Shown: positions 11,374 to 14,547 of the stretch, one piece after another
How positions within the stretch are numbered: the first letter of the stretch is position 1
Layout: each line of letters opens with the position of its first letter
Source of the DNA: Polyangium mundeleinium
Lineage (GTDB): Bacteria > Myxococcota_A > Polyangia > Polyangiales > Polyangiaceae
Assembly: GCF_028369105.1 (NCBI RefSeq)
Contig: NZ_JAQNDO010000001.1
Coordinates: forward strand, 4,866,501 to 4,930,500
Direction: 5' to 3'
Length of the DNA: 64,000 nucleotides
Made by a program: the position numbers and the translations under genes
Notes under the pieces: generated by a model
What the model saw: only the letters and a program-made list of their open reading frames with translations
What the model was told of the DNA's origin: nothing
Databases searched by the model: none

Positions 11374-11470
11374 GCACTCCTCCGGCGGCGTCTCGCGCTG
11401 CGACGGCAGGAGTAACCGCGGGCACATCGCTCTGTCAAGCCGCCCGCCCGGTTCAAAGAAGCCGCCCTGA

Positions 11471-11628
11471 CATGTCGGGATCGGTGTCCGGAGCTCCTGC
11501 GCGTCATCCCAACGCGTCCGGATCGGTCTCCAGAGCTCCTTTGCGCCATCCCGACGCGTCTGGATCGGCCTCCAGAGCCCCGCCGCGCCATCCCGATGCG
11601 TCCGGATCGGTCTTTAGAGCTCCTGCGA
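11471..11628. repeat. 42-bp tandem repeat, four imperfect copies
   Basis: The anchor GATCGG recurs at 11479, 11521, 11563 and 11605, exactly 42 bases apart. The consensus unit runs CATCCCGACGCGTCCG, then GATCGGTCTCCAGAGCTCCT and GCGC, with 3-8 differences between copies. The unit is a multiple of three and open in some frames, but no start site or family supports coding. It abuts the hairpin array that begins near 11,660. Confidence 0.85.
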
Positions 11629-11659
11629 CGCACCCGAGCGTCGGGCGCTCGTTTCTCGG

Positions 11660-11998
11660 AGGCGGGGCGTCGCCCCGCACCCCAGCAGGGGGCTGTCCGC
11701 CCCCTGCACCCCGGACCAGGCACGGCCTGGACCGAAGGTGGAAGAACTGCGCGATGCGCAGTTCTTCCAACGGGCCGGTGGCAAGACCATCGACGTGCGT
11801 CTCAAGCAGGCGATGGGCACGTTGCAGGTTGAACCTGCAGCGCCGCGGTTTTGGTTGGCAAGGTCGTTGAGGGTCTTGCCAGCGGCTGTTCGATGAACTG
11901 CGCATCGCGCAGTTCATCGACCCCGAGTCCAGCGCTTGCGCTGGTCCGGGTCCAGGGGCGGATAGCCCCGGTGGGGCCTGGGGCAACGCCCCAGCGCA
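11660..11998. repeat. Mirror-symmetric array of paired hairpins
   Basis: About 340 bases built from hairpins placed symmetrically around 11,830. Outermost: GCGGGGC/GCCCCGC (11662-11678) and CTGGGGC/GCCCCAG (11978-11994). Next: GCAGGGGGC/GCCCCCTGC (11685-11707) and GGGGC/GCCCC (11955-11969). Next: CCAGGC/GCCTGG (11716-11730) and CCAGCGC/GCGCTGG (11929-11944). Next: two 14-bp stems at 11739-11769 and 11890-11920. TGGCAAGACC (11779-11788) mirrors GGTCTTGCCA (11872-11881), and TGCAGGTT/AACCTGCA sits at the centre (11823-11839). The two halves are therefore diverged inverted copies in which stem pairing has been kept. No gene is supported here. It could be a structured RNA, a mobile repeat inserted twice head to head, or a bidirectional terminator array. 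Confidence 0.85.
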
Positions 11999-12066
11999 GC
12001 GCCTTCGACAAGAAACCGAGGTTCGTCCCTGGAATGCGCCTCGCGCGTTTGGCGTTTCGCGCCCCC

Positions 12067-14547
12067 ATGCGACGCCCGCGTGACGCCATCCTCCTTCTCG
12101 CGGTGTTTCTTTTTGTCCTCGGCCTCGGCGCCCTCGCTGCCGCCGCGCCGCCGGAACCAAAAGAATCCAAAGGCACCGTAACGCTCCCGTTATCGCGGTG
12201 GCGAGCCCTCGAAGACGACCTCGCCGCCCCTGCGCCTCCGCATCCCGCCGCCGAGGGCGTCTTATGGGTCTCGCGGCGTATCGAGGGCCGCTTCCGCAAA
12301 GGCCTCTGGACGGGCCGCCTCGTCGCCCGCTTCGACGTCCTGCCTGGCGGCCCGGTCCGCGTCCCTGTCCTCGATCATCGCGCCGTCCTCGGCGAGGTCA
12401 CGCTCGACGGCGAGCCGGCCGCGTTGCTCGAAGACGGCGCGCGATATGCCCTCCCGCTCGACCACGCGGGCCGTCACGAACTCACCGTCGATTTCCACTG
12501 GGGCCGCGAGACCGAGCGATTCACCCGCACGCTCGACCTCTCGCTCCCCGAGGGCGGCCCTGTCGCGCTCGAGGCTCGCATCGCCGAGCGTGGCATCACG
12601 CCGACCCTCGCCGGCGGCGCGCTCGCCTCGTTCACCGAGCAAGGCGGCGACACCGTCGTCACGGGCCACCTCGACGGAAGCGGCGAGCTTCGTTTGTCCT
12701 GGAAACAAAGCAAGTCGAGCGAGCCCCGCGGCGAGGCGCGCATCGAGGCCCGCGAACACACGCTTTTCCGCGTCAGCGAGGCGCTCGTCACCGGCCAGAG
12801 CCGGATCGACCTCCACGTCCTCGAAGGCGAGACCGACACGATCCGGCTCTCCTTGCCCCCCGGCGTGGAGGTGCTTCGTGTCGAGGGCGACGCCGTCCTG
12901 CAATGGCACCCCCTCGCGACCGAAAAGGAGGGCCGCGTCCTCGTCGTCCTTCTCCGCCACCTCGTCGCCGACGAGGCGCGGATTCGTGTCGATTTCCAGC
13001 TCGCGAACCAGCCGCAGGCGCCCATCGAGCTCGTGATGCCCCTGCCGAGCGCACCGATTCCCACCGTGGGTTCGCTCGGCGTGCTCGGGCCACCGGGATT
13101 GCGCCTGGATCCGCGTAGTGTCGAGGCTGCCGAGCGCCTCGCCCCGCGCGAGATCCCCGAGGAGCTCCAGGCGCTCGGCACGGGCCCCGTGCTCTTCGGG
13201 TATCGATTCGACAAATCGCCGCGGATCGTCCTTTCGGCCTCGCCTTTGCCCGAGCTCGAGCTCGCGCGCACGGTCGTGGACGAGCTCTCGGCGTCCACGG
13301 TTGTCCTCGGCGACGGCACCGAGCGCACGAAGGTCGCGCTCCGCATTCGCAACGACGGCCGGCAATACGTCGAGCTCGCCTTGCCCGAGGGCGCGCGGCC
13401 CCTGCGCTCGTTCATCGACGGCCGCGAGGTGCGTCCCGCCCTGCTCGGCCAGCGCCTTCTCTTGCCGCTTCGCCAGAGCGAGCGCCTCGCCGCCGACCAG
13501 ACCCGCATTCATACCGTGCGCGCCGGCGAGACCCTGAGCGACGTCGCGAACCTCTATTACGCCGACCCCTCCGCCTGGCAGCGGATCTCCGCGAAAAACC
13601 GCGCCGTCATCCCGGAGAGCGGCTCCCTTGTCGAAGGCACGCGCCTCGAAATTCCTCCCGCGGCCGAGGCCACGAAGGAGGCCTTTTTCGTCATCGAGGT
13701 CGCCTACGAGCGCCCGCTCCACGCGCTCGGCGCGTTTGGTCTGGAAAAACTCCGCCTCCCCGGCCTCGACGTCGACACCACGAAGGCCGTCTGGCATGTC
13801 TACTTCCCGTCTTCGCACGAGCCGCTCGAATTCCGGGGCAACCTCCGCCAGGCGTCCCGCATCAAATACGACCCGTTCCGCCGGCTGCAATGGTACCTGC
13901 AATCGGCGCTCGGCGTCTCGACCGCGTCGGCGGGCGGATACGAAAACATTCTCCAGAAGCGCCGCGCCATCTATAACGATGAGGCCACGGGCGGCGGCGA
14001 GCCCTTCGCCGCGCTGACCGAGTTCCCCCTCGTCGGCGAGCGTTATCGCTTCCGCCGTATCCTCCTCGGCCGCGAGATCCCCGAGATCACCGTCGTCTAC
14101 GCGTCGAACGGCCTGCTCTCCTGGGTCCGGCACGGCGCGCTCGTGGCCGCGTTCGTCGCGGCGGCCTTCGCGCTCCGGCGCCGGGGACGCGCGCCTCTCC
14201 TCGCGCTCGTCGGTACGCTCGTGCTCCTCGTCTGCCTCGCCCATTTCGTTCCCGGCATTCACCGCCGCATTCTGTGGGGCCTCGATTTCGCGCTCTTCCT
14301 CGCGCTCGCGCGCCGCGCGTGGCCCCGCGTCCGCCGCCTCGCGCGCGCCTTCGCCCGCGCGCCGTGGCTCCTCGCCCGGATGATCACCGCCCGCAGGCTC
14401 GTCGCAGCCGCGGGTTTTTCCTGGCTCCTCGGCGAGCTCGCCGCTCACCCGATGCTCCTCTCCCTGGCCGCGCTCGTGTCCTTGTCCGCCGTGTGGTTCC
14501 GCCTGCGGATCCTCGCGGAGCGGCGGAGGTCTCGTCATGCAACGTAA
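12067..14547 (+). CDS. Large membrane-anchored protein with internal LysM domain
   Basis: I do not recognise a named function. From ATG 12067 the protein is 826 residues with an N-terminal signal (RRPRDAILLLAVFLF and onwards). A long beta-rich exported part follows, a LysM-like domain at about 480-535 (HTVRAGETLSDVANLYYADP to SLVEGTRLEIPP), and several transmembrane helices after about residue 685. LysM modules bind peptidoglycan, so the exported part may contact the cell wall. The order of segments (PLSRWRALEDD, then a strand block ending LDGEPAALLEDG, then an HVYFPSSHEPLEF segment before the membrane part) parallels the next gene, which looks like a paralogue without LysM. An upstream in-frame ATG at 12034 is an alternative start. 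The 3' end overlaps the next gene by 11 bases. Confidence 0.8.
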   Translation: MRRPRDAILLLAVFLFVLGLGALAAAAPPEPKESKGTVTLPLSRWRALEDDLAAPAPPHPAAEGVLWVSRRIEGRFRKGLWTGRLVARFDVLPGGPVRVPVLDHRAVLGEVTLDGEPAALLEDGARYALPLDHAGRHELTVDFHWGRETERFTRTLDLSLPEGGPVALEARIAERGITPTLAGGALASFTEQGGDTVVTGHLDGSGELRLSWKQSKSSEPRGEARIEAREHTLFRVSEALVTGQSRIDLHVLEGETDTIRLSLPPGVEVLRVEGDAVLQWHPLATEKEGRVLVVLLRHLVADEARIRVDFQLANQPQAPIELVMPLPSAPIPTVGSLGVLGPPGLRLDPRSVEAAERLAPREIPEELQALGTGPVLFGYRFDKSPRIVLSASPLPELELARTVVDELSASTVVLGDGTERTKVALRIRNDGRQYVELALPEGARPLRSFIDGREVRPALLGQRLLLPLRQSERLAADQTRIHTVRAGETLSDVANLYYADPSAWQRISAKNRAVIPESGSLVEGTRLEIPPAAEATKEAFFVIEVAYERPLHALGAFGLEKLRLPGLDVDTTKAVWHVYFPSSHEPLEFRGNLRQASRIKYDPFRRLQWYLQSALGVSTASAGGYENILQKRRAIYNDEATGGGEPFAALTEFPLVGERYRFRRILLGREIPEITVVYASNGLLSWVRHGALVAAFVAAAFALRRRGRAPLLALVGTLVLLVCLAHFVPGIHRRILWGLDFALFLALARRAWPRVRRLARAFARAPWLLARMITARRLVAAAGFSWLLGELAAHPMLLSLAALVSLSAVWFRLRILAERRRSRHAT

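Follow-up and report, generated by a model that had tools for sequence, protein, structure and literature searches.

Short palindromic repeats that crowd the ends of genes have long been known and are poorly explained. According to PMC3733652, REPs, each a single palindrome of 20-40 bp, are located immediately beyond gene 3' ends, where the genes are convergent or co-directional. Insertion sequences (IS), including the IS4-family ISRm22, are known to insert into REPs (PMC1525189), and template switching can rewrite hairpin stems without intermediates (PMC8794818). The repeat family described here, found in a 64,000-nucleotide stretch of the Polyangium mundeleinium genome (the window), shares features with several such systems. 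Like the REP, BIME and REPIN arrangements of PMC3733652, it consists of high-copy extragenic inverted pairs, often hetero-dimers, located past 3' ends, but its half-unit spans ~120-130 bp and has four hairpins where a REP is one palindrome. Unlike REPs and REPINs, it lacks a general GTAG/CGTC tag, has no RAYT gene in its own genome (G000), and bears IS4/Tn5-type ends on a subset of copies. As with ISRm22, an IS4-family insertion sequence has landed within palindromic repeats; unlike the ISRm22 case as presented in PMC1525189, the repeat carries the terminal repeat of the IS itself in a minority of copies, and target and cargo are therefore related. The family also recalls bacterial MITEs in its short non-coding units, with IS terminal repeats on a minority of copies and, at locus L050, a target duplication, but in most copies the terminal repeat is missing, whether lost or never acquired, and the inner hairpins are conserved and mosaic. 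Finally, it resembles template-switch hairpins, which PMC8794818 describes for rRNA genes, in showing several compensatory changes at once with no wobble intermediate.

Positions 11,660-11,998 of the window are a single copy of this repeat, ~340 bp long, made of two inverted half-units, A and B, that are ~75% alike. Each comprises four hairpins and a covarying pseudoknot-like pairing, and the arms at 11701-11771 and 11888-11958 are 75% complementary. The preliminary description had reported four mirrored hairpin pairs around a central palindrome, and all nine stems were found where it placed them; the hairpins are spaced as mirror images because the whole element is one inverted repeat. Half-unit A occupies 11663-11788 on the plus strand (profile match, L062:2408-2533). 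Its hairpins are A-H1 at 11662-11678 (7-bp stem, 3-nt loop), A-H2 at 11685-11707 (9-bp stem, with a TGTCC loop that covaries, pseudoknot-like, with the GGAC before H3), A-H3 at 11716-11730 (6-bp stem, the point of IS insertion in several other copies) and A-H4 at 11739-11769 (14-bp stem, 3-nt loop). Half-unit B is inverted, on the minus strand at 11873-12005 (profile match, L062:2618-2750), with B-H4 at 11890-11920 (14-bp stem), B-H3 at 11929-11944 (6 bp), B-H2 at 11955-11969 (5 bp) and B-H1 at 11978-11994 (7 bp). Between the halves lies a variable centre of 84 bp (11789-11872) holding the palindrome, 11823-11839, with a 7-bp stem. This palindrome is present here but only loosely kept in other copies, where, over 50 units, the best central stem averages 5.0, compared to 3.7 once the centres are shuffled; with a mean identity of 79%, compared to 94% for A and 90% for B (50 units), the centre is the part that changes fastest. 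The folding energy of the region on one strand is -266 against a shuffled mean of -186 (z -13.3), far beyond chance, and the other strand has a z-score of -12.0. Genes in the window, judged by eye, presumably include one that is carotenoid-oxygenase-like and one that is LysM-like.

The window site was compared in four other Polyangium genomes, G002, G003, G004 and G005; a fifth, G001, was not alignable there. G002, G004 and G005 align across the site with essentially nothing in between. The segment they lack runs from 11450 to 12024, has the 5-bp direct repeat GGTTC at its edges (11450-11454 and 12020-12024), and measures 570 bp with one GGTTC copy counted. It is thus larger than the hairpin element, and includes, to the left of the hairpins, a 42-bp tandem array of 4.1 copies (11474-11642). 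G003, taken as Polyangium fumosum DSM 14668, has at least the left part, as far as H3 of half A; an IS is inserted at that point, and the contig stops there. By eye, the tandem array is shorter in this orthologue. The empty site in three relatives shows the window copy to be an insertion, and the family to be mobile; loss of the segment from three lineages, rather than one gain, is the less likely history.

The same repeat occurs at 102 sites (clusters) in G000, a genome of 13.25 Mb, where arm-pattern matches were merged with places from a DNA search. That search, in which 40 of 233 candidates were scored, gave at least 84 matches on both strands in 41 distinct places. G000 has 177 occurrences of the core hairpin, GAACTGCGC-NNN-GCGCAGTTC, compared to 0 for a reversed control, and strand-specific patterns find 70 A-type and 97 B-type arms. 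Loci were found through an exact match to one H4 arm, so that divergent copies are under-sampled. A profile search of 100 of the 102 clusters, the remaining two entering neither the half-unit nor the context counts, yielded 212 half-units and 88 convergent pairs: 83 A/B, 4 B/B and 1 A/A. Paired halves are most commonly separated by 84 bp, with a minor class near 64 bp. Hairpin alleles are mixed in many combinations across halves, and the arrangement is BIME-like, with palindromic units that alternate, are mosaic and are extragenic. At three loci (L084, L095, L096), a further B half lies after an A/B unit, with 523-524 bp between B starts and a common spacer repeat. The search for the half-element that the preliminary description had proposed, in its own and related genomes, therefore found halves at many other places. 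With at most 18 candidates considered per genome, all 5 other Polyangium genomes searched carry the family and none of 19 other genomes from the same taxonomic family matched; in the order beyond, 1 of 14 further genomes gave a marginal match (E 9.9e-4). Among titles and abstract openings of the literature on Polyangium palindromic intergenic repeats, we found no description of the family. That the element is a chance or decaying repeat can for practical purposes be dismissed: although spacer, linkers and terminal repeats do decay, the 177 core hairpins against 0 in the control and the intact stems (316 of 350 H4 stems perfect) rule it out, both halves exist elsewhere, and compensatory changes are abundant.

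For 88 paired of 124 units, genomic context was taken from genes called by a simple codon score. Neighboring genes are convergent for 48 units, co-directional for 36, and divergent for 4, one of which is the window copy. Gene 3' ends face units 132 times, with a median distance of 20.5 nt to the hairpin core; for the 44 gene 5' ends that face units, the median is 143.5 nt. Solo half-units behave similarly: in 18 of the 27 that passed filtering, the outer side faces a 3' end. In the loci surveyed, convergent gaps that hold no element are short, with a median of 5.5 nt (n=20). The repeats may have a role at gene 3' ends.

Pairing was examined over 33 pairs in five helices, using 75 halves selected from 352 so as to be diverse; they come from six genomes. 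Paired cells make up 99.1%, compared to 90.7% in shuffles and at most 45.8% when the halves are slid, and double-sided changes are seen in 204 cells, compared to 57 in shuffles. Further pair types, at 24, are not above the shuffled 22.6, as 129 of 500 shuffles reach 24. The compensated differences first pointed out between the two halves of the window copy are therefore genuine and general across copies. G-U occupies only two cells among the 75 halves. In H4, scored in 350 of the 352 halves, there are 4,860 Watson-Crick cells, 5 G-T, 12 A-C and 23 other; the 111 halves lacking the search anchor, counted apart, give 1,529 Watson-Crick, 4 G-T, 10 A-C and 11 other. Selection on an RNA should leave G-U in excess of A-C. 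The near absence of G-U and G-T therefore makes the pairing look DNA-level rather than RNA-selected, and we infer from the missing wobble pairs that the hairpins are probably kept by DNA-level processes. Descriptively, the preliminary reading is correct in that copies retain the pairing and not the sequence, but the same pattern could arise with no selection for structure, through template switching or the swapping of entire hairpins. One position of the H2 loop covaries with the sequence before H3 (62 C-G, 11 T-A, 2 G-C), reflecting few independent events, and RNAalifold offers an alternative pairing of the G and C runs of H1 and H2. Loops are strongly oriented: GAT outnumbers ATC by 131 to 8, TCC outnumbers GGA by 103 to 8, and GGT outnumbers ACC by 62 to 0. 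Inverted loops, one footprint of template switching, are thus rare in the family, a point of difference from the hairpins of PMC8794818. Many copies in six related genomes constitute a natural test of whether hairpins are kept by RNA selection, by DNA structure, or by errors of replication and recombination; near-absent wobble pairs are a discriminating result, applicable to other repeat families.

The family is linked to an insertion sequence through its ends. Of 196 half-ends, 32 have the 18-bp CTGAGCATGGGTCTCATC, or a version of it with up to 5 mismatches, beyond the hairpins and almost always at one register; the other 164 have no terminal repeat at that threshold, with a weak excess at that register. 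The window copy has no end of the CTGAGCATGGGTCTCATC type, and the repeat at its edges measures 5 bp instead of 9. In G000, an insertion sequence of 1,504 bp ends in nearly the same 18 bp (CTGAGCATGGGTCTCATC with one or few mismatches), and its 475-aa product is an IS4/Tn5-type transposase, scoring over cut-off to PF14706, PF01609, PF02281 and NF033590. G000 contains 25 sites within one mismatch of the terminal-repeat pattern. Of these, 14 are ends of hairpin elements, two remnants included, another 8 bound the IS or related cargo units, and 3 lie elsewhere. A 1,011-bp unit at L050 has both terminal repeats and a perfect 9-bp target duplication. A hybrid at L068:1398-2430, with no target duplication, carries a hairpin half-unit at one of its ends and, at the opposite end, 49 residues from the C-terminus of the transposase. 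Of the four full copies of the IS in G000, three lie inside the family's own half-units, those in L075 and L133 within H3 of half A, with the duplication GGCACGGCC, and that in L094 between H2 and H3, without a 9-bp duplication; the fourth (L241) is outside the family. The shared ends in a minority of copies and the one 9-bp duplication suggest that a Tn5/IS4-type transposase moves the family. Several facts weigh against this reading. Its weak point is that most copies, the window copy among them, have no recognizable terminal repeat; in addition, the window segment exceeds the hairpin element in size, the 9-bp duplication is missing from the IS in L094 and from the L068 unit, the IS in L241 is in no half-unit, and G004, with 131 matches to the half-unit pattern, has none to the transposase. 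An autonomous form of the element with a long spacer was considered and rejected, as neither L129, with two A halves, nor L117, with a long spacer, shows any match to the L075 transposase. The inverted A halves of L129 (2413-3782) are ~1.1 kb apart, and the gene between them we take, by eye, to encode a HAD-type hydrolase. A 2,090-bp unit at L096:374-2463 has IS-type terminal repeats, a GGCACGGCC duplication in H3 of an A half, and a 537-aa ORF with no match to the transposase, and may be a cargo transposon.

Comparison of orthologous sites reveals turnover. At 23 of 60 G003 loci, one of which (L192) may match through a repeat common to long forms, the flank adjoining the element matches an element-adjoining flank in G000, in 16 cases on both sides. 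A relative locus of uncertain genome, L026, was dropped from the comparison. Twelve G000-G003 pairs have full units and flanks 88-96% identical, yet in eleven of them the elements are only 81-91% alike, about the level of paralogues taken at random (means 82-88%); the remaining pair, of B/B units, stands at 97%. Elements are more similar in direct orientation in 10 of 11 informative pairs, L063/L163 being closer in reverse and the B/B pair being uninformative, and independent insertion at the same site in G000 and G003 is accordingly not favored. Among 8 informative comparisons of G000 or G003 with G004, 6 show a flip, although two of these involve a single G004 locus, and independent insertion is therefore possible between these genomes. 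The single G002 pair and the single G004-G005 pair are unflipped. In many of the pairs compared, the short linker from stop codon to element is not the same in the two species. Simple descent explains these observations less well than exchange between copies at scattered sites. The turnover and flips seen at individual sites show that dispersed palindromes undergo recombination. A separate segment of ~870 bp in G000, L092:3260-4129, has no hairpin-family match and is missing at the aligned place in G003.

We think it probable, with appreciable room for doubt, that the family is a genus-specific, high-copy mosaic in the manner of BIMEs and REPs, built of non-autonomous Tn5/IS4-type elements whose palindromes are maintained by DNA processes. 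Of the explanations put forward in the preliminary description, the one that fits best is a mobile repeat with hairpin ends that occurs twice in inverted order, given the copy number, the empty sites, the ends shared with the IS on a subset of copies, and the paired A and B halves. The elements would be non-autonomous derivatives (MITEs), moved in trans by a Tn5/IS4-type transposase, and would collect at gene 3' ends if the enzyme favors GC palindromes and insertions there are tolerated. Once fixed, they may lose their terminal repeats and then be rewritten and flipped by recombination among copies. Stems would stay perfect by DNA-level processes rather than RNA selection, candidates being palindrome correction by template switching, whole-hairpin exchange, and selection as folded DNA or as a transposase target. 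The family would then tie gene-end palindromic repeats to a Tn5/IS4-type transposon rather than to a RAYT.

Selection for folding is the core of the strongest competing account, in which the half-unit is a folded single-stranded DNA, comparable to attC sites or the ends of IS200/IS605, whose recognition by a protein drives spread and enforces strict Watson-Crick pairing. The 99.1% of paired cells, the 204 double-sided changes with two G-U cells, the lack of any G-T excess over A-C, the strand bias of loops (GAT 131, ATC 8) and the three-allele covariation between the H2 loop and the sequence before H3 all agree with it, but no Y1 transposase is found in G000 or G004, and the pseudoknot signal comes from few allele types; we consider this account possible, though rather unlikely. 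A bolder version deserves about the same tentative standing: four hairpins plus a pseudoknot-like contact would form a module read by a putative protein, defining a new structure-defined class of mobile or 3'-end DNA, Tn5-type- instead of Y1-associated. If that were true, strict Watson-Crick pairing would be kept genus-wide while sequence, orientation and copy are constantly exchanged. Selection for the same fold in a transcribed RNA would likewise explain the covariation and the z-scores (-13 and -12 on the two strands), but not the two G-U cells against 204 double-sided changes, nor the near symmetry of the whole element on both strands. The structured RNA that the preliminary description had entertained is accordingly not favored, and we hold it improbable: G-T is almost absent (5 against 12 A-C in ~4,900 H4 cells), and no Rfam family reaches its gathering score in the window, where matches are sub-threshold only. 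One of these, RF00883 (MIR820; E 1.7e-6, 45.8 bits against a gathering score of 196), we read as a chance match to a long hairpin.

Placement invites a different proposal, that the element is a bidirectional 3'-end device, a terminator or mRNA stabilizer, with each half working for the gene transcribed towards it. The 48 of 88 units between convergent genes, with 4 divergent, the 132 nearby 3' ends, and the 18 of 27 solo halves with a 3' end on the outer side are in its favor. However, gene-end placement follows from tolerance alone and is reported for REPs generally in PMC3733652, wobble pairs are almost absent, and the window copy itself lies between divergent genes with no T run after its stems, so that we judge such a device unlikely. 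A search of 11400-12150, covering the window copy only, found no intrinsic terminator (a stem, then a T run), and a Rho-independent terminator is ruled out for that copy by the missing T run. A REPIN moved by a RAYT (Y1) transposase would account for paired inverted palindromic units, high copy number, and location at 3' ends, but the units are far larger than REPs, and in the 13 nt before H1 the expected tags are not general (CGTC in 75 and GTAG in 13 of 349 halves). Moreover, among four genomes searched, the RAYT family PF01797 (Y1_Tnp) has one match in G003 and one in G005, and is absent from G000 and G004 despite their abundant copies. With no RAYT gene and no general tag, this mechanism is largely ruled out for G000, and for the family as a whole we regard it as very improbable.

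Along the G000 chromosome, copies are unevenly distributed. The GC skew of the fetched loci was too noisy for placing the terminus; dnaA lies at 11.65 Mb, and 13 of the 102 clusters are within a quarter chromosome of it. The origin side appears strongly avoided, all clusters lying outside the intervals between 10.0 and 13.2 Mb and below 1.3 Mb.
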